Source: a virus
Length of the DNA: 42,156 bases
IMG/VR virus record: IMGVR_UViG_3300013129_000007
Location: 1 to 42,156 of that record
Direction: 5' to 3' (one strand)
Numbering within the stretch: the first letter of the stretch is position 1; every line of letters starts with the position of its first letter. Positions 17,931-41,506 of this stretch are shown here, piece by piece. A model generated the notes under the pieces. It was not told the DNA's origin, did not search any database, and saw only the letters and a program-made list of their open reading frames with translations. The position numbers and the translations under genes are program-made.

Positions 17931-18326
17931 TTGGACTACGAAAAAATAATTAAATCAGGTGAAAGAGTTGATTGGTATGGTGTACAAGTACCACAAGAAT
18001 TAATTACACCCTCAGTTTTAATGTGGTGTGAACCTTTGTTACATGAGATAGATGTTTTAGAGGCAGAACTAAACGACCTTAAAGGCACAGAAAAAGAAAA
18101 AAGAAAGAACACAATAAATTTATTATTAAATAACATTAAAAAGGCCCCTTACAATTTGAATGGTGACTTTTATTTAATAAAGAAAAAAAGATATGAAGCT
18201 GAATTAAAGCAAGAAGACGAAGAAAAAAGTAAAAAGAATAAAAAGAAAACTGTTACTAAGACAACTAAAATAAATAGTGATAAGTCTACAAAAAACAGTA
18301 ATTTAATTTTTGGAAAAAATAAATAG
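17931..18326 (+). CDS. Hypothetical protein with Lys-rich tail (TTG start)
   Basis: 131 aa from a TTG start. No ATG gives a complete N-terminal domain, and the promoter 26 bases upstream fits. Residues 1-50 contain DWYGVQVPQELITPSVLMWC, then a coiled-coil-like helix. The last 40 residues are a very basic Lys/Thr/Ser tail (KSKKNKKKTVTKTTK) likely to touch nucleic acid. It directly precedes the sigma-factor ATG. Function unknown. Confidence 0.5.
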   Translation: MDYEKIIKSGERVDWYGVQVPQELITPSVLMWCEPLLHEIDVLEAELNDLKGTEKEKRKNTINLLLNNIKKAPYNLNGDFYLIKKKRYEAELKQEDEEKSKKNKKKTVTKTTKINSDKSTKNSNLIFGKNK

Positions 18327-18330
18327 CTAT

Positions 18331-19146
18331 ATGGTTACGAATAAAAAATACATCGACACATCTGAAGACAGCATTTCAAACTACCTAAAAGAGGTTAGAA
18401 AAATTAATGTTTTAACTCCTGAAGAAGAACTTGAGTTAACTAAAAAAATAGCTGAGGGAGACCAAAAGGCTATCGACGCATTGGTTAATGCGAATTTACG
18501 TTTTGTTATTTCAATAGCAAAAGAATATCAAGGACAGGGATTACCACTTGTAGATTTAATTAACGAGGGTAACTACGGTCTTATTAAGGCAGCAAGAAAG
18601 TTTGACCACACCCGTGGTTTTAGATTTATTTCTTACGCTGTTTGGTGGGTTAAACAATCCATCTTACAATCCCTTTGTGATAACTCTAGAATGGTTAGAC
18701 TACCAGTTAACATCACAAATCAGTTATCAAAAATCAAAAAAGAAATAGCTTTATTTGAACAAGAAAACCATAGATTACCTGTTGATGGTGAAATGGACCT
18801 TTCTGTTTTAAATCACCCTACATGTGGTTCTTTGAATGAGAAGATAAACGAAGATGGTGATGAGGTATTGGATGTTATTCCTGATAACACTTTTGAAAGA
18901 CCTGATGATGATATTTATTCTGAAGAAATCCTTAAAAATCAATTAGAAAAAACTCTTTCAGTATTGAGTGATAGAGAGAAGGAAATCGTTAGTATGTATT
19001 TTGGTCTTGATGGTCAACCTATGACTTTGGAACAAATTGGTGAGGAATATGGTTTAACTAAAGAACGTATTAGACAAATCAAAGAAAAGAGCCTTAGAAA
19101 GTTAAGAGCTAATTCAGAAAATCTTTTTGAATTTATTTACAAATGA
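18331..19146 (+). CDS. Primary-type sigma-70 factor
   Basis: 271 aa from the ATG at 18331; the TTG at 18310 would overlap the previous gene needlessly. There is no region 1.1. Region 1.2 is SISNYLKEVRKINVLTPEEE; regions 2.1-2.4 run through NANLRFVISIAKEYQGQGLP, DLINEGNYGLIKAARKFD and FRFISYAVWWVKQSILQSL; region 4.2 is LEQIGEEYGLTKERIRQIKE. The architecture resembles the short primary sigma of Bacteroidota, with region 3 reduced. It probably directs host RNA polymerase to phage promoters, and the window's promoters fit that class. Base composition is less AT-rich than the neighbours. Confidence 0.92.
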   Translation: MVTNKKYIDTSEDSISNYLKEVRKINVLTPEEELELTKKIAEGDQKAIDALVNANLRFVISIAKEYQGQGLPLVDLINEGNYGLIKAARKFDHTRGFRFISYAVWWVKQSILQSLCDNSRMVRLPVNITNQLSKIKKEIALFEQENHRLPVDGEMDLSVLNHPTCGSLNEKINEDGDEVLDVIPDNTFERPDDDIYSEEILKNQLEKTLSVLSDREKEIVSMYFGLDGQPMTLEQIGEEYGLTKERIRQIKEKSLRKLRANSENLFEFIYK

Positions 19147-25408: not shown

Positions 25409-26374
25409 ATGTCAAATTATATTAATAAAATAGTTAAAAATAAAATAAAAACTTTATTGGAGACTAAAGGATTTGAGGATATGGAAGTGACTTTTGGTCT
25501 TAAATACAAAAGTGATAATCTTTCTGATGCAGAAAAAGCACAATTTGGTACACTAGAAACCATTCAAGATAAAGAAACGGGGTTAGTTAATTTAGGTAGT
25601 GCTAAAGTACAACCAGCTTTGGATAAGGTACATAAAACTGATGTACAAGATGCTGAAGAGTATTACAAAATGGTTTTAGATAGAATGAAAAACTTCCAAG
25701 AAACTTCTGAATCTGAACCATCACAAATTGGTGAAGCTTTTGAACCTAAAAAAGTTAACAGAGAAGATTCCCAAACTGAACCTGAAGAAGTTTATAGTAC
25801 AGAAGCTTTGGGACCTGGCATGTTGGCTTTAAGATATGATGATGAGGGAACGTCAAAACATGATCTATTAATGAAAAGAATGGATGACATGAACGGTAAT
25901 GACTCAACTTATAAAAAGTTAAGAGGATATTCAGAGAAGTACTTAAAACATAAATATGGTACTCCTGATGAATACCATTATACACCAAAAGTTAGAACTA
26001 CAGATAAACCTATTGCTGAATCAAAGTATTCTGATGTAATTGAGGAAAATATCTTTAAAACAAAAGGTGAAATTAAATCAAAAGAACAAGTTATTAGATT
26101 AACTGAAAAATTACCTTCTAGAGTTAAGATTGATGAGACTGTATTTGCTATCACCGATGGTAACAACTATTACAGATTAATATGGGAAGGTGAAGAAGAT
26201 GGTGAAGCGGTAATTACTCATGAGAAAAATACTAAAGTGGTTAACGAATCTATAGATAAAATGAAACATTTGTGGAATTTTAATTCATCAAAAACAATAT
26301 CAACAAAAGGGATTGTTAGTGAGAATGAAAACAACCAATTTAAAAAGATGTTCAGAAATTTAAAAAACAAATAA
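25409..26374 (+). CDS. Probable virion or scaffold protein
   Basis: 321 aa, no membrane segment. The start, MSNYINKIVKNKIKTLLETK, is a helical leader like those of its neighbours. The middle is acidic and polar, and a small beta domain lies at about 225-275 (VFAITDGNNYYRLIWEGEED). GATATTTAT sits 18 bases upstream. Placement next to the DUF4314-like protein and before the lysis genes fits a structural role. Confidence 0.5.
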   Translation: MSNYINKIVKNKIKTLLETKGFEDMEVTFGLKYKSDNLSDAEKAQFGTLETIQDKETGLVNLGSAKVQPALDKVHKTDVQDAEEYYKMVLDRMKNFQETSESEPSQIGEAFEPKKVNREDSQTEPEEVYSTEALGPGMLALRYDDEGTSKHDLLMKRMDDMNGNDSTYKKLRGYSEKYLKHKYGTPDEYHYTPKVRTTDKPIAESKYSDVIEENIFKTKGEIKSKEQVIRLTEKLPSRVKIDETVFAITDGNNYYRLIWEGEEDGEAVITHEKNTKVVNESIDKMKHLWNFNSSKTISTKGIVSENENNQFKKMFRNLKNK

Positions 26375-26375
26375 A

Positions 26376-26627
26376 ATGAAACAAAAAATTAAATGGTTTA
26401 TTAAAGAAATAATGAATATGTATTCTACTACAGATTCTTATTTTTCTAAAAAAAGAATTGAGTCTGGTGTAGCTTTTGTTATCGCTCAATGGGGTATGAT
26501 TTTTTTCTTGTTAGAAAAACATAAAACTTTAAGTATGGGGGAATTCCTATTATGGGCATCAGCCGAATTTGCTGTAGCTGGTTGGATGATAAGTAAAATT
26601 CAAAAAGAAAAGACAGAAAATAAATAA
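26376..26627 (+). CDS. Small two-helix membrane protein, holin candidate
   Basis: 83 aa with two hydrophobic helices (SGVAFVIAQWGMIFFLL and GEFLLWASAEFAVAGWMI) and basic ends. It precedes the GH19 endolysin, separated by a terminator. Size, topology and position fit a class II holin, which makes the membrane lesion that releases endolysin. No sequence family is recognised, so this is context-based. Confidence 0.6.
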   Translation: MKQKIKWFIKEIMNMYSTTDSYFSKKRIESGVAFVIAQWGMIFFLLEKHKTLSMGEFLLWASAEFAVAGWMISKIQKEKTENK

Positions 26628-26631
26628 TATT

Positions 26632-26657
26632 AAACCCTCTTTAAGAGGGTTTTTTTA
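26632..26657 (+). terminator. Rho-independent terminator before endolysin gene
   Basis: Stem AACCCTC (26633-26639) with GAGGGTT (26645-26651), short loop, T-run. It separates the holin-like gene from the endolysin, which then has its own TATAAATA-containing leader. Confidence 0.88.
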
Positions 26658-26691
26658 TTAGATATAATATTTATAAATAAAAAAAAAAGTT

Positions 26692-27306
26692 ATGAGTTTA
26701 AAAAAGTTACAAGAAAAGATAGGTGCAACTCCTGATGGTTCATTCGGACCTAATACCTTAAAGAAAGCTATGGAGTATTATAAAATGACTCCTGAAAGAG
26801 CGGCACATTTTTTCGCTCAAACAGCCCACGAAACAGGTGAATTTAAATTATTTAGTGAGAACCTGAACTATTCAGCTAAAGGTTTACAAAATATATTTGG
26901 TAAATACTTTCCTGGAAATTTGGAAGAATCTTATGCTAGACAACCAGAAAAAATAGCTAATAGAGTTTATGCTGATAGAATGGGTAATGGTAATGAGTCT
27001 TCTGGTGAGGGTTGGAAATATCGTGGCAGAGGAGCTTTACAATTAACCGGTAAATCAAACTATAAAGCTTTTTCTGATTATTTAAAAAATCCTGAAATCA
27101 TGGATAACCCTGATTTGGTGGCTAATGATTTAGCTTTTGAATCCGCCATGTTTTTCTTTGATAAAAATAAGTTATGGTCAATATGTGACAGTGGTGTCAA
27201 TGACGCTTCAATATTATCGTTAACAAAAAGAATTAATGGAGGTACAAATGGTTTGGAACATAGGTCAGAATTGACTAAAAAATATTATGGTTGGTTAAAA
27301 AAATAA
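26692..27306 (+). CDS. GH19 chitinase-like endolysin (muramidase)
   Basis: 204 aa. AAHFFAQTAHETGEF (Glu47 catalytic) and KLFSENLNYS (Glu56) match the GH19 active site, and YRGRGALQLTGKSNY is the family's hallmark substrate-binding segment. It should hydrolyse the glycan strand of peptidoglycan. No signal peptide, so it needs a holin; a candidate is next door. The N-terminal 20 residues (GATPDGSFGP) look like a truncated peptidoglycan-binding repeat. Confidence 0.92.
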   Translation: MSLKKLQEKIGATPDGSFGPNTLKKAMEYYKMTPERAAHFFAQTAHETGEFKLFSENLNYSAKGLQNIFGKYFPGNLEESYARQPEKIANRVYADRMGNGNESSGEGWKYRGRGALQLTGKSNYKAFSDYLKNPEIMDNPDLVANDLAFESAMFFFDKNKLWSICDSGVNDASILSLTKRINGGTNGLEHRSELTKKYYGWLKK

Positions 27307-36312: not shown

Positions 36313-37734
36313 ATGTCACGATTAACTGAAGCTTTACAAACTGAGAATGTAACCACTAAAAATGGTATGACTACAAATTCATCATCATTGAATGAGTGTG
36401 TTAATCTCTTTTTCTCTATCGGAGCGATGAGAGGTAAAGGTAAAGATAGAGTTGTGTCCTTATTTTCAAAGGCCTTCAATGAAGACCCTAGAACTGCGAT
36501 GAGAATTCTTTTTTGGTCTAGGGATATTAGAGAGGGTGCTGGTGAAAGACAAATCTTTAGAGATGTTATGTCTTATTTGGCACAAAACTATCCACAAACA
36601 GTTAAGACTAATCTTGACTTAATCCCTGAGTACGGAAGATGGGATGACGTTCATGTTCTATTCGGGACTGAATTGGAAAACGATGTCGTCACACTTCTTG
36701 TACATGGGTTAAGAAACCCTGAAACAGCCTCTTTGGTTTCAAAGTGGATGCCAAGAAAGGGTTTGGTATTTAACAAAGTACGTAAAGCCCTAAAGGTTAC
36801 ACCTAAAGAGTTAAGAAAGATGGTTGTTTCTCTATCTAAAACTGTTGAACAAAAAATGTGTTCAAAAAGATGGGAAGAGATTGAGTACCCAAAGACACCT
36901 TCTTTGGCTATGTCAAGATACACCAAAGCTTTTGGTCGTAATGATAGTGAAAGATTTAAATCATTCATTGAATCTTTGAAAAAAGGTGAAGTGAAGATTA
37001 ACGCCGGAGCCCTCTATCCTTACGATATTACTAAAAACCTTAGATTTGGTAGTAATAAAGATTTGGCTAACGAACAATGGAAAGCTCTTCCTAATTGGAT
37101 GGAAGGTTCTAACGAACTAATCCTTCCGATGGTTGACGTTTCAGGTTCAATGGCATGTACTGTTGGAGGTAACCCTAACCTTACATGTATGGAGGTGGCT
37201 ATTTCTTTGGGTATGTATATCTCAGAAAGAAATGAGGGTTCATTTAAGGATATGTTTATGACATTTTCTTCTACCCCTCAAATCCAAAAGTTATTGGGAC
37301 CTTTGAGTGATAGATATAACCAATTAGCTAGAGCTGATTGGGGTATGTCAACAAATTTATACTCAGCATTCAAAACTATTTTGAATCAGGCAGTTAAATT
37401 TAACATCCCACAAGAGGAGATGCCAAGTAAGATTCTTATCTTGTCTGACATGGAATTTGATGTCGCGACAGGAAGAAGAGAACATTCAGCCTTGTCAATG
37501 ATTGATGAGATGTACGCTGAAGCTGGTTATGTAAAACCTGGAATTATTTTCTGGAATTTACACGCCAATGGGGGTAACTTCCCAGCAAGATTTGATGATG
37601 AAGGAACAGCTTTAATTAGTGGTTTCTCACCATCAATCCTGAAATCAGTCTTGTCTAACCCTGATAGCTTAACACCTATCAACATTATGAACGAGACTGT
37701 TAATTCAGAACGTTACGAACCTGTTACAGTTTAG
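36313..37734 (+). CDS. Ro60-like protein (DUF2828/TROVE type) with vWA MIDAS
   Basis: 473 aa. The N-terminal two-thirds are helical HEAT-like repeats with the family segment AMRILFWSRDIREGAGERQI, then PEYGRWDDVHVL, typical of DUF2828/TROVE proteins. The C-terminal von Willebrand A domain has a full MIDAS: DVSGS (Asp275, Ser277, Ser279), a Thr in WGMSTNLYS, and ILSDMEFD. Ro proteins bind Y RNAs and misfolded RNAs in a ring and take part in RNA quality control. Here the gene is followed directly by a large structured non-coding region, the expected position for an RNA partner. Gene and RNA are both less AT-rich than their surroundings. Confidence 0.75.
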   Translation: MSRLTEALQTENVTTKNGMTTNSSSLNECVNLFFSIGAMRGKGKDRVVSLFSKAFNEDPRTAMRILFWSRDIREGAGERQIFRDVMSYLAQNYPQTVKTNLDLIPEYGRWDDVHVLFGTELENDVVTLLVHGLRNPETASLVSKWMPRKGLVFNKVRKALKVTPKELRKMVVSLSKTVEQKMCSKRWEEIEYPKTPSLAMSRYTKAFGRNDSERFKSFIESLKKGEVKINAGALYPYDITKNLRFGSNKDLANEQWKALPNWMEGSNELILPMVDVSGSMACTVGGNPNLTCMEVAISLGMYISERNEGSFKDMFMTFSSTPQIQKLLGPLSDRYNQLARADWGMSTNLYSAFKTILNQAVKFNIPQEEMPSKILILSDMEFDVATGRREHSALSMIDEMYAEAGYVKPGIIFWNLHANGGNFPARFDDEGTALISGFSPSILKSVLSNPDSLTPINIMNETVNSERYEPVTV

Positions 37735-37736
37735 AA

Positions 37737-38292
37737 CCTATAGGTGATGAAAGATACTCGGTATCTAAACTGTTAAAGTTCTTTGAAATATTGTGGTATT
37801 AAGGAATAATTGCAGCAAATTTAAAAAAACAAGCTATAATTTCGAGAAAGAAGGGAGTGATAAACCCCCTAACTACAAGGGTGTAAAGGTGAAGGCCGAG
37901 GACCACTCACGGTTAGGTAAATATATCAAAACGATTCCGTTACCACACAAAATTAAAGGTGTACTGGATTGGGGGTGAACGAACTCTCTTTAAGTCCGAC
38001 AGAAGAATGGTTTCTGCAAATTTTTCTAAAAAACTTGTAAGAACGATCAGAGGTTTTACCAATTTACCTCAAAATAAATTATAAATTGGCAACCATAGGA
38101 GAGTTTAAACGTGGGAAAATCCCACACTTAAGGTTGTAAAACATACCTCTTGATTATCACAAGTGAAAATGATAATTGGATTTGTCTCAATTAAATAAAA
38201 GACACCCGAACTTGAATGGGCTAATAATAACAGGGTGGGTTAGTACCCCACTGAAAATAATAGTAAGATCACCATTCTGACACCTAAATTTT
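37737..38292 (+). ncRNA. Large structured RNA of about 550 nt beside the Ro-like gene
   Basis: No convincing gene lies between the Ro-like stop and a terminator 560 bases on. The ends are complementary (TAGGTG 37741-37746 with CACCTA 38281-38286). Visible hairpins: AGATAC/GTATCT at 37751-37765, CAGAA/TTCTG near 38000-38016, GTGGG/CCCAC near 38111-38124 and GTGGG/CCCAC near 38235-38251. An H-type pseudoknot lies at 38050-38089. A hand count of 37861-38160 gives 113 of 300 G or C, well above the neighbouring genes. It could be a Y-type partner of the Ro-like protein or one of the giant phage RNAs (ROOL or GOLLD class); no splicing or tRNA-like features were recognised. Confidence 0.7.
38050..38089 (+). 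other. H-type pseudoknot inside the structured RNA
   Basis: Stem 1 GAGGT (38050-38054) with ACCTC (38066-38070). Stem 2 CCAATTT (38059-38065) with AAATTGG (38083-38089). Loop 1 is 4 bases, there is no gap between the stems, and loop 3 is a 12-base A-rich stretch. This is the classical geometry of a stable pseudoknot. Confidence 0.72.
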
Positions 38293-38293
38293 T

Positions 38294-38319
38294 AAAGGGA
38301 GAGAAATCTCCCTTTTTTT
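38294..38319 (+). terminator. Rho-independent terminator with GAAA tetraloop
   Basis: Nine-base-pair stem AAAGGGAGA (38294-38302) with TCTCCCTTT (38307-38315), closed by a GAAA loop and followed by Ts. It ends the RNA or the Ro-like gene plus RNA unit. Confidence 0.92.
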
Positions 38320-38362
38320 ATGTAATTAATTGATATTTATTTGTAGTTAAATTATTATTAAA

Positions 38363-38557
38363 ATGTCTAGAATTGAAGAAATTGTTTTTAAATCCATTGA
38401 ATTGGGTATTCAAGAAAGATTGTATACTAGAGTTAATAAAATGATTGGGAACTCAGAATATAAACACTTTGAGTTACATAGATTATATGAAATAGCTTTA
38501 GAAAAAGAAAAGGAAGTTTTACACAATAATAATTTATATAAACCACCCATTGGCTAA
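38363..38557 (+). CDS. Small protein, 3' end formed by the inserted element
   Basis: 64 aa, helical (VFKSIELGIQERLYTRVNKM, then LHRLYEIALEKEKEV). Its last three to four residues and stop codon (TAA at 38555-38557) lie in the right-end hairpin of the TnpB element, so the original C terminus was probably longer. GATATTTAT lies 23 bases before the ATG. Function unknown. Confidence 0.5.
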   Translation: MSRIEEIVFKSIELGIQERLYTRVNKMIGNSEYKHFELHRLYEIALEKEKEVLHNNNLYKPPIG

Positions 38558-38569
38558 AGACCAATGGGT
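38545..38569. repeat. Right-end hairpin of the TnpB element
   Basis: Nine-base-pair stem with CCCATTGG/CCAATGGG and loop CTAAAGA. On the element's coding strand it reads CCCA-TTGG-TCTTTAG-CCAA-TGGG, matching the left-end hairpin in its outer stem and whole loop, with paired changes between. Such hairpins are TnpA recognition sites in IS200/IS605 elements. It also ends the tnpB frame. Confidence 0.8.
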
Positions 38570-38720
38570 TTTGTAGGATTAACCCTAACTGGGTGGTTTA
38601 TAACACCGCTTACATCCGTAAGAGATAAATCTCCATCAGATTTACTTTTATATTTTCTTAATATATTACAAGCACCATTCACATCAGCATTAATTAATTT
38701 ACCTTCTTTTGTTTTAAATA
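38546..38720 (-). ncRNA. Predicted reRNA/omega RNA at the 3' end of tnpB
   Basis: In TnpB elements the guide RNA scaffold overlaps the 3' end of tnpB and the right end, with the guide supplied by flanking DNA outside the element. By that rule the scaffold would be here, ending in the 38545-38569 hairpin, and the guide would be read from about 38544 downward. The extent is an estimate; only the hairpin is directly seen. Confidence 0.35.
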
Positions 38721-39822
38721 AACCTCGTTTAATTCGTCTACCTAAATAATTATCTTTTTTACTTATAGGTTCTAAATCTAATGAGGAGCATTTGCTTGTG
38801 TAACTTTCCTCTTGTAAAACATAATTAATTCCGTAATATTCACATTTTGTTTCTAATTTTCTTTTTAAAATACCGAATGGTACCGAAACAAAGTTCTGAT
38901 TATTTACTTTACCCATATTAATTTCATTCTTTATACTTTTAAAATCACCTATAACTATTGTACCAATATCATTATTAATACAATATTTAACTATTTTATT
39001 CACACTCTGATTAAAGTAGTTATTTATATAATTTTTTCTATATTCACTTAATTTAATAAATTTTTTTGTGTTTTTATCTTTGATTTTATTTTTTTCATAT
39101 TCATTTTGTAATCTGGCTTTTTGTTTATTATAATAATGGTTTACTGATTTAAGTGGTTTACCATCTATAATAAATGATGTTTTATTTTTAGTATTATAAG
39201 ATGTTAAAAGATTATCTAAACCACAATCAATACTTAAAATATTATTATGATTTATTTTTTTTATATTATTTTTACCAACATAAGTAATAATTAATTCATA
39301 TTCTTTACCACCATAAATTGGTTTAATCTGTAATTGTTGTAATCTATTGGTCTTAATATTTTTCGGTAGGTTAAATACAACATCACGCTTTGATATACCA
39401 TATTCTTCTCTAAATTGTTTACTAAGACCCATATATATTTTACCATCTTTAACTCTAGAACTTCTACCAGCGACTAATACTGACCATCCCGATTCTTTAT
39501 CTAAATAAGATGGAATATTAACTGTACTAGAATATTTACCCTTTTGTTTTAATTTAAGTAATGAGAAAAATGATTTAAAATTTCTATCAACCAATCTATG
39601 GGTTTGTTGTGAGGAATCAGTTATAAGTAATTTATAATTAATATCATCTTTAATTAAATGATACTGATCAACATAATTTAAATACGAATTATTATCAAAA
39701 TAATATTGTCTAATATTATAAACACAAGTATTATATAAACGAGCCGAATGGTATGATAATTTATCTATAATAAATCTATCTTCATCATTTAATTTAAGTT
39801 TATATTTTTGTGTTAATATCAT
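38554..39822 (-). CDS. tnpB: TnpB RNA-guided nuclease (IS605 OrfB family), zinc-ribbon-poor lineage
   Basis: 422 aa. The RuvC acids are all present: NILSIDCGLDNLLT (Asp199), VLQEESYTSKC (Glu339) and INADVNGACNI (Asp380). The zinc ribbon usual between the last two is gone: a single Cys in TSKCSSLDLE and no later CxxC, replaced by YLGRRIKRGLFKTKEG, a variant known in some TnpB lineages. The N-terminal RNA- and DNA-binding half looks complete, so the protein is probably active. It cuts DNA at sites set by its guide RNA and preserves the element. Confidence 0.9.
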   Translation of the reverse strand: MILTQKYKLKLNDEDRFIIDKLSYHSARLYNTCVYNIRQYYFDNNSYLNYVDQYHLIKDDINYKLLITDSSQQTHRLVDRNFKSFFSLLKLKQKGKYSSTVNIPSYLDKESGWSVLVAGRSSRVKDGKIYMGLSKQFREEYGISKRDVVFNLPKNIKTNRLQQLQIKPIYGGKEYELIITYVGKNNIKKINHNNILSIDCGLDNLLTSYNTKNKTSFIIDGKPLKSVNHYYNKQKARLQNEYEKNKIKDKNTKKFIKLSEYRKNYINNYFNQSVNKIVKYCINNDIGTIVIGDFKSIKNEINMGKVNNQNFVSVPFGILKRKLETKCEYYGINYVLQEESYTSKCSSLDLEPISKKDNYLGRRIKRGLFKTKEGKLINADVNGACNILRKYKSKSDGDLSLTDVSGVINHPVRVNPTKPIGL

Positions 39823-39924: not shown

Positions 39925-39971
39925 AATTCGTTTCCTCCCACAAACTAAAGATTTGTGGGTTTCCACGAATT
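39925..39971. repeat. Left-end hairpin of the TnpB element, extended
   Basis: Inner stem CCCACAAA (39937-39944) with TTTGTGGG (39952-39959) and loop CTAAAGA, the same loop as the right end. An outer stem AATTCGT (39925-39931) with ACGAATT (39965-39971) extends it to 47 bases, ending 8 bases before the Mom-like ATG, so it also lies in that gene's leader. Confidence 0.8.
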
Positions 39972-39978
39972 AAAAATT

Positions 39979-40710
39979 ATGAACACAGAGAAAATACAGA
40001 AGTTCATCAACAGAGAACTTAAGGCTAAAGACATTTTCTACTTAAAAGAAGTAACCAAAAAAGAAGCTTACGATTTTGTTAAAACTTACCACTATTTAGG
40101 TGAGGCTAAATTTTTTGCTAAATATTCTTATGCTGTAATTAACAAAGAAAATGAAGAGATTGTTGGTGTTGCTACTTTCTCTAATCCACAAGGTAATGTT
40201 GCATTAAAAGGTTGGTTCGGTTTATCTAATGATGACCAAACTGTTTTGGAACTTAGTAGACTTTGTGTATTACCTGATTTAAACGGAACTAACGCAACTT
40301 CTTATCTTTTGGGTGGTAGTATTAGATTATTAAAGAAAGAAGGTATTAGGGCAGTTATTACGTTAGCTGATGATAGTAGACATAGTGGTAGCATTTACCA
40401 AGTTTGTAATTTCACATACTATGGTTTAACAGATAAGAAATCAGATTTCTTTAGATGGGACGGTAAGGTTAACCCTAGGGGTTCAACAAAAGAAGTTCAA
40501 GGTGTGTGGATTCCTAGAACAAGAAAACATAGATATGCTTACATTATTGACAACTCACTTAAGTGTTTATATAATCAAGAAATAAGACCACAAAAAGGTG
40601 ATACTAATGAATACGATTGTTGTGCTGGAACTAAACAAGTTTATGACAACAGATTTAAAAAATGGTATTCTTGCCCTAAGTGTGATGAAATAGGTGAATT
40701 AGCTTTTTAA
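39979..40710 (+). CDS. Mom-like GNAT-fold DNA modification protein, first copy
   Basis: 243 aa from ATG 39979; an earlier in-frame start falls in the element hairpin. YHYLGEAKFFAKYSYAVI, VGVATFSNPQ, ELSRLCVLPD, then a helix GSIRLLKKEG, ITLADDSRHSGSIYQ and CNFTYYGL follow the Mom family of phage Mu, which adds a carbamoylmethyl group to adenine N6. A C-terminal zinc-like cluster (DCCAG and CPKC) is an addition. If active it would protect phage DNA from restriction. Stop and next start are 1 base apart. Confidence 0.72.
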   Translation: MNTEKIQKFINRELKAKDIFYLKEVTKKEAYDFVKTYHYLGEAKFFAKYSYAVINKENEEIVGVATFSNPQGNVALKGWFGLSNDDQTVLELSRLCVLPDLNGTNATSYLLGGSIRLLKKEGIRAVITLADDSRHSGSIYQVCNFTYYGLTDKKSDFFRWDGKVNPRGSTKEVQGVWIPRTRKHRYAYIIDNSLKCLYNQEIRPQKGDTNEYDCCAGTKQVYDNRFKKWYSCPKCDEIGELAF

Positions 40711-40711
40711 G

Positions 40712-41506
40712 ATGAAATATTTTTTTGAAATAAAGGAGATTGAGAAAAATTTAGCAATAGATTTTGTACAAGAAAGACATTACTCAAAAGTTATGCCCAA
40801 ATTAACCAAACATTGGTTGGGTTGTTTTTTAAAAGATGAGTTGGTTGGTGTTGTAACTCTAGGTTGGGGAACTCAACCATTACAAACCATTAAAAAGTTA
40901 TTCCCTAATTTAAAATCTGAAGACTATTACGAAATAGGTAAAATGTGTATGGATGATTCCATGCCTAGAAATTCAGAATCACAGATGTTGGCTCAAGTGG
41001 TTAGATGGATGAAAAAGAATTTACCTGAAAAGAAATTCCTTTATACATGGGCAGATGGTATCGTAGGTAAGGTAGGGTATGTTTATCAAGGGTATAATTT
41101 TTATTATGGTAACTTTATATGGACTGATATCTATATTTCACCTTTGGGGGAAAAGATACACCCACGAAGTTCAAAAGTTTTATTAAAAGAAAATGCTGAG
41201 TTTTTGGGTAAAGAAAAGTTATTTTGGATGACCCCTGATTTCATGAAATTGAAGGGTATCCGTAGAATCAGAGGTAAACAATTTAGATATATATTCCCAC
41301 TAAATAAAAAATCGAAAGAATTATTAAGAAGAGAATCCACCGTTATTTGGAACAAAATATACCCAAAAGAAATTGACCTACAATGGAAAGAACAAAAAGG
41401 TAAGGGTGAATATGTTTTATTAGAGGGTAAACCTGAAATGGATTTAAGTATTGTTGAATATAATCAAAACAATGTTAATGCTCACAAAAAAAGTGTGAAT
41501 GTTTAA
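40712..41506 (+). CDS. Mom-like GNAT-fold DNA modification protein, second copy
   Basis: 264 aa, same architecture as the first copy but diverged: FVQERHYSKVMPKL, WLGCFLKDELVGVVTLGWG, YYEIGKMCMDDSMPRNSES, RWMKKNL, FLYTWADGIVGKVGYVYQG, YNFYYGNF. The core His, Gly-rich turn and helix order are those of Mom-like GNAT proteins. The C-terminal 90 residues are an unknown extension. A tandem pair suggests either two modification steps or a specialised second subunit. Followed by 101 bases with a strong promoter for the next gene. Confidence 0.68.
   Translation: MKYFFEIKEIEKNLAIDFVQERHYSKVMPKLTKHWLGCFLKDELVGVVTLGWGTQPLQTIKKLFPNLKSEDYYEIGKMCMDDSMPRNSESQMLAQVVRWMKKNLPEKKFLYTWADGIVGKVGYVYQGYNFYYGNFIWTDIYISPLGEKIHPRSSKVLLKENAEFLGKEKLFWMTPDFMKLKGIRRIRGKQFRYIFPLNKKSKELLRRESTVIWNKIYPKEIDLQWKEQKGKGEYVLLEGKPEMDLSIVEYNQNNVNAHKKSVNV

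Follow-up and report, generated by a model that had tools for sequence, protein, structure and literature searches.

A phage gene whose product has a predicted Ro60-like fold is followed by a structured non-coding RNA of ~530 nt that contains two copies of one conserved module, and this module is found again next to other genes of the protein's family (DUF2828), in phages and in cells. We consider it likely that the two products form a phage ribonucleoprotein, in which a Ro60-like ring protein would be paired with a dedicated downstream Y-type RNA that carries two docking modules and large effector inserts. The window, by which we mean the whole stretch of DNA that was analyzed, is a 42,156-base IMG/VR virus record. 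The features described below are collected in Table 1.

Table 1. Features of the DUF2828 gene, the leader and the RNA, with positions in the window.
Feature	Position	Strand	Basis
DUF2828/DUF7788 protein, predicted Ro60-like fold (helical N-terminal part and C-terminal vWA domain, complete MIDAS)	36313..37734	+	Pfam and PHROG; AlphaFold2 and Foldseek; MIDAS conservation
Leader hairpin, arms ACAGTTTAGA/TCTAAACTGT around invariant 20-mer AGGTGATGAAAGATACTCGG (37742-37761)	37726..37773	+	viral contig comparison
boxA-like GTTCTTTGAAA, putative antitermination signal	37778..37788	+	recurrence near leader hairpin
Structured non-coding RNA, two modules and terminator	37790..38319	+	alignments A1 and A4; covariation
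Module 1	37792..37947	+	covariation; motif common to other DUF2828 loci
Module 1 outer helix	37792-37798/37941-37947	+	
Module 1 inner helix	37803-37807/37934-37938	+	
Module 1 core TTGCAGCAA	37810-37818	+	
Module 1 insert hairpins	37852-37866, 37879-37908	+	
Module 2	37958..38284	+	covariation
Module 2 outer helix	37958-37962/38280-38284	+	
Module 2 inner helix	38005-38011/38271-38277	+	
Module 2 core TTTCTGCAA	38011-38019	+	
Module 2 3' TGA	38278-38280	+	
H-type pseudoknot 1	38050..38089	+	stem 1 38050-38054/38066-38070; stem 2 38059-38065/38083-38089
H-type pseudoknot 2	38149..38175	+	stem 1 38149-38152/38160-38163; stem 2 38154-38159/38170-38175
Intrinsic terminator GGGAGA-GAAA-TCTCCC-T7, GAAA tetraloop	38297..38319	+	sequence

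The DUF2828 protein has a predicted Ro60-like fold

The gene encodes a protein of 473 amino acids that matched DUF7788 (1.1e-44) and DUF2828 (3.5e-40) in Pfam, and family 850, 'RNA-binding protein', in PHROG (5.8e-152). The Pfam TROVE sequence signature was not found in the protein, where DUF2828 and DUF7788 stand in its place, and Pfam vWA_Ro60 gave a match at E 0.17 only, under its cut-off.

We modeled the protein with AlphaFold2, using an alignment of the window and IMG/VR loci (24 relatives), and obtained a predicted fold with a mean pLDDT of 79.7. A Foldseek search of the PDB with this model returned five matches at E<=0.001, all of them Ro60/TROVE structures: 9kop, 9l5y (Ro60 dimer of Thermus phage phiLo), 2nvo (Deinococcus Rsr), 1yvr (Ro autoantigen) and 9nf8 (human Ro60). 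The TM values of the best matches to the model were 0.40-0.57. The predicted structure has the HEAT-repeat ring and vWA domain that characterize Ro60/TROVE proteins. Pfam does not place the sequence in TROVE, so we use the cautious term 'Ro60-like fold' for what the model predicts. The first-pass annotation had described a DUF2828/TROVE-type protein with a complete vWA MIDAS. TROVE is thus apt for the fold and not for the Pfam sequence family; the MIDAS is indeed complete, and its five residues (DxSxS, T, D: D275, S277, S279, T347, D379) are unchanged in 19 diverse relatives.

The gene-free stretch encodes a conserved, covarying RNA

About 550 bases without a gene had been noted behind the protein gene, and this was borne out. 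We found no credible gene in 37735-38362 (~630 bases after the reading frame), and the longest open reading frame within 37735-38320 encodes 61 amino acids. ARAGORN found no tRNA in the window. Likewise, no Rfam family, including ROOL, GOLLD, OLE and YrlA, matched the window at gathering scores, and a loose scan of the gene-free stretch gave chance-level matches only (E 2-10). The ROOL, GOLLD and OLE covariance models were unmatched by the ~530-nt RNA and the YrlA model (RF02553) was unmatched in the stretch up to E 10. The same kind of scan gave a ROOL match in Listeria phage A511 and is therefore able to detect this family. The structured RNA accounts for most of the region that was first marked out; positions 37726-37788 form a separate 5' leader (below).

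Both modules of the RNA follow one plan: an outer helix, a small internal loop, an inner helix of ~5-7 bp, and then a core. After the inner helix, each module has UUnCWGCAA, a variable insert, and a returning strand, usually followed by YG. The inserts are ~115 nt in module 1 and ~250 nt, with two pseudoknots, in module 2. The several hairpins and the GAAA-loop terminator of the first-pass annotation are present, and the terminator is kept at the same place in most relatives. A single H-type pseudoknot had been proposed; there are in fact two, both backed by covariation. A further pseudoknot between the two halves of the RNA (TTGCAG/CTGCAA) was considered and dropped, the two sequences being copies of one core motif and not partners.

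Pairing is conserved among relatives far beyond what shuffled and slid controls give. The covariation tests took in all structure elements except the terminator hairpin. RNAalifold, applied to a ten-sequence alignment, identified 27 compensated pairs. Curation, with both pseudoknots included, gave a structure of 78 pairs that was 96.4% paired; two-sided changes were seen in 21 of these pairs compared to 8.8 in shuffled alignments. With 14 sequences, two-sided changes were found in 31 of 77 modelled pairs (shuffled mean, 11.9) and in 62 cells (18.7 in shuffles); 95.4% of cells were paired, compared to 35-49% in the slid control. In pseudoknot 1, compensatory changes affected five of the seven pairs of stem 2 and two of the five pairs of stem 1 (14 sequences). 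Since these counts leaned on the helix choice of RNAalifold, we also checked four sequences outside the derivation of the structure. They kept 258 of 275 pairs (94%) with 27 compensatory changes, whereas slid partners in the same four sequences were 37-49% paired with 0-4 compensatory changes.

Entire hairpins are gained or lost among relatives, and pseudoknot 2, for example, is entirely deleted from module 2 in L016, L017 and L059. This coming and going is as expected for an RNA and not for a gene. Nothing was found in favor of a decayed gene or a chance structure; the covariation, the conservation and the lack of a long frame leave that reading, which the first-pass annotation had named as its own possible refutation, with next to no probability. 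A self-cleaving ribozyme, or an element resembling a group I/II intron, might also be compact and pseudoknotted with conserved unpaired nucleotides, which the alignment of this RNA contains. However, Rfam gave no ribozyme or intron match, and no gene is interrupted, the DUF2828 reading frame ending normally. We think it very improbable that the RNA is of this kind.

The RNA stays behind the DUF2828 gene in relatives

The RNA keeps its place after the DUF2828 gene in relatives whose protein is as little as 55-59% identical. BLASTN matched the stretch in further viral contigs, again behind this gene; identity was 80-83% in nearer clades, and the matches were patchy in more distant ones. The module-1 motif occurred in exact form in 20 viral contigs, all with the DUF2828 gene directly upstream, and 16 of 17 contigs with the module-2 motif had the gene there too; the 17th starts within the RNA. 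The expectation that the RNA would be present downstream of relatives of the gene therefore held.

Two of the loci, L017 and L074, belong to one 380-kb jumbo phage contig (IMGVR_UViG_3300030102_006934) with two DUF2828 paralogues, of which one has a two-module RNA and the other a single module of ~131 nt.

One module recurs beside DUF2828 genes in phages and cells

The module that occurs twice in the ~530-nt RNA is common to other DUF2828 loci. Among distant relatives, one module was found in L079, two in L020, L049, L053, L058, L059, L062 and L063, and three in L021-L029. The helix sequences differ among relatives yet stay complementary (GAATGG/CCATTC, GGATAG/CTATCC, GGTTTC/GAAACC, GACCAA/TTGGTC, and others). 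When cores were picked regardless of pairing, 40 of 61 had a matching helix and YG, compared to 7.3 expected when the downstream sequence was shuffled.

In 58 viral and phage loci, we found 77 sense modules near DUF2828 compared to 3 antisense, and a density of 5.4 modules per 10 kb near DUF2828 compared to 0.4 elsewhere, counts that overstate independence since many of the viral loci are closely related. Three modules lie directly upstream of the DUF2828-family gene in Listeria phage A511, and upstream modules are also found in Campylobacter and Enterococcus phages. Felixounavirus momo has four modules spread among tRNA genes, and modules also occur in a Staphylococcus phage (three), Enterococcus phage EfV12 and Campylobacter phage F357. 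There was no clear module beside the gene in KVP40-like, Citrobacter Ci1 and Aeromonas PX29 loci. Fifty cellular DUF2828 loci had 104 sense and 17 antisense modules, mostly tandem and upstream of the gene, some of those in GC-rich genomes being surely due to chance. The cellular carriers include Treponema, Clostridia, Chloroflexi, Methanobrevibacter and a Woesearchaeon.

The first-pass annotation had offered a choice between a new class and a giant phage RNA with a protein partner. Judging from the recurrence of the module, the RNA is not an isolated class, and is best described as an enlarged two-module member of a set of DUF2828-linked RNAs in phages and cells. This linkage also bears on whether the RNA could be an ornate one of the ROOL/GOLLD kind that works without protein, as an oligomer or cage, and is a mere neighbor of the gene. 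Its size, pseudoknots and phage location would suit such an RNA. We find the reading improbable, given that the RNA has its modules in common with DUF2828 loci of both phages and cells, and that Rfam ROOL, GOLLD and OLE were unmatched by a scan that detects a ROOL-like RNA in A511.

A leader hairpin and a boxA-like element precede the RNA

The leader hairpin overlaps the DUF2828 stop codon. It is followed by GTTCTTTGAAA, a putative boxA of the kind known from rRNA leaders. The exact 20-mer AGGTGATGAAAGATACTCGG was found in 95 viral contigs. Across 66 distinct contexts, the arms of the leader vary yet pair, with a mean stem of 8.1 compared to 5.7 for swapped arms. A TAnnTTTG promoter box was present <=60 nt upstream of the leader in 48 of the 66 contexts (3.3 expected), and GTTCTTTRA was present <=140 nt downstream of the hairpin in 40 (0.08 expected). 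The conserved arrangement suggests an antitermination leader.

The leader hairpin with the boxA-like GTTCTTTRAA (L110-L192) is also found ahead of tRNAs, other non-coding RNAs and genes. The window scans gave no Rfam match for it, and its likely role is in antitermination in phages of Bacteroidota. In several phages (L112, L115, L117, L119, L141, L154, L164, L165 and L187), the same leader is followed by another conserved non-coding stretch, ACATAGTAGA..GTTCTACATAGT..ACGGCCGCCTATGGTCGT..AAATAAACTACGAAAG.

There was no TAnnTTTG promoter close upstream of the leader in the window, so the RNA here may be processed from the transcript of the DUF2828 gene. The missing promoter, the overlap of the leader with the stop codon, and the adjacency of the modules to the gene would all fit a 3' untranslated, autoregulatory element of the DUF2828 mRNA that is bound by the protein to control its own synthesis, with no free ribonucleoprotein. 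However, modules lie upstream of the gene in cells and in the Listeria, Campylobacter and Enterococcus phages, and among tRNA genes in Felixounavirus, indicating that they have no set place with respect to the mRNA. In addition, the RNA of L020 is preceded by a TAnnTTTG promoter of its own, which lies between it and the gene, and the RNA in the window has its own terminator and large, conserved inserts. We consider autoregulation unlikely, if the most plausible of the alternatives to a ribonucleoprotein.

Genome surroundings

A TnpB/OrfB-like gene (38554-39822, minus strand) is inserted beside the RNA, and is found also in L001 and L002. Its adjacency raises the idea that the RNA is a guide RNA (omega or re-RNA) of this gene. 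The gene is on the opposite strand, though, and in L003 and further relatives, which still have the RNA, no such gene was seen beside it; we give this idea hardly any weight. Two adjacent Mom-like (DNA modification/GNAT) proteins are encoded at 39955-41506. The window also contains a gene for a phage sigma factor (18310-19146; PHROG 351, 3.5e-62) and several TTG-N-TAnnTTTG promoter-like sites, which are consistent with a virus of Bacteroidota, the probable source of the window.

A proposed ribonucleoprotein

The phage ribonucleoprotein of the first-pass annotation gains support from the modeled fold of the protein, the structure of the RNA and its linkage to the gene, and the recurrence of the module beside the same gene family; physical binding is the step that we infer, together with two proteins per RNA, transcription, antitermination and the downstream function. 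We propose that a Ro60-like ring protein and the Y-type RNA encoded directly downstream, in the same orientation, would form the complex. The DUF2828 protein would grip the putative docking module (the helix, UUnCWGCAA, the returning strand and YG), which is present in two copies per RNA. The leader hairpin and the boxA-like element would probably allow RNA polymerase to transcribe this long untranslated RNA to its end.

The module could be the frame on which a Ro-type protein docks, and its insert an interchangeable effector that is tRNA-like in Enterococcus and Mycobacterium phages and large and pseudoknotted here. The inserts might be effector domains that recruit a second factor, such as a nuclease, the ribosome, or another host or phage RNA-processing protein; alternatively, they might gate the cavity of the protein. 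Directed RNA decay, quality control and ring gating are candidate functions for the complex. More tentatively, and with somewhat less than even confidence, we suggest that two Ro60-like proteins dock on a single RNA, one at each site, and are assembled around its large pseudoknotted effectors, which would be an undescribed phage RNA-processing machine.

If this more tentative suggestion is correct, the RNA partners of DUF2828 proteins in general, whether bacterial, archaeal or phage, would form one family defined by a shared docking code. With an obvious partner candidate next to this large, structured phage RNA, and a short putative docking motif repeated within it, protein binding can be put to a direct test. 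The motif would also give a simple rule for finding the RNA partners of hundreds of DUF2828 proteins labelled 'hypothetical' or 'RNA-binding' in widely used laboratory phages (Felixounavirus, mycobacteriophages, Listeria phages) and in bacteria such as Treponema and Clostridia.

Comparison with known systems

The locus resembles those of Y RNA/YrlA and Ro60 (Rsr) in that the RNA gene lies next to a gene for a protein with a predicted Ro60 fold, and in that a basal helix module holds an insert or effector domain. In contrast to Y RNAs, the RNA is ~530 nt and not ~100, it has two putative docking modules in one molecule, and its candidate partner is a DUF2828/DUF7788 protein and not a Pfam TROVE protein. 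A likeness between UACWGCA and the 3' strand of vertebrate Y RNA was dropped because its polarity could not be mapped.

The inserts in the window are not tRNA-like, with no YrlA or tRNA match, whereas those of the DUF2828 family members in Enterococcus and Mycobacterium phages are YrlA-like. There, Rfam YrlA matched tRNA-like inserts within the elements at 45.2 and 39.8 bits (E 8e-7 and 3e-5), below the gathering score of 69, and since the model also responds at such scores to ordinary tRNA-containing genomes, these matches are support and not proof. The T-arm precedes the D-arm in these inserts, the permuted order typical of YrlA.

Among phage proteins, the mycobacteriophage 'Ro-like RNA binding protein' (PHROG 850) is homologous to the DUF2828 protein, and the phiLo Ro60 dimer (9l5y) has the same fold as that predicted here. 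Our literature search found no giant partner RNA described for phage Ro-like proteins. A mycobacteriophage homologue is toxic if over-expressed (PMC13148394), which would fit an activity on host RNA and proves nothing.

In Listeria phage CKA15, the Rsr-like protein CKA15_055 was found in virions, and Y RNAs have been suggested near its gene, where abundant non-coding RNAs occur (PMC12282133). The related phage A511 is similar in having its three modules directly upstream of the Rsr-like gene; those of CKA15/A511 are short upstream modules and not one large RNA. In A511, L082:3507-4058 (record 26196-26747) matched ROOL at 87.5 bits (E 3.6e-16), under the gathering score of 99.1. The most abundant unexplained transcript of CKA15, a P100-like phage, lies at 26,236-26,727 (PMC12282133); given how its coordinates match the A511 interval, it is probably a ROOL RNA.

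Like ROOL, GOLLD and OLE, the RNA is large, structured and pseudoknotted, and it differs in having no sequence or structure match to them. ROOL and GOLLD are phage-borne, with no function described for the phage-borne forms (PMC12286853). No protein partner is known for ROOL (PMC12286853), whereas a candidate protein partner adjoins the RNA described here.
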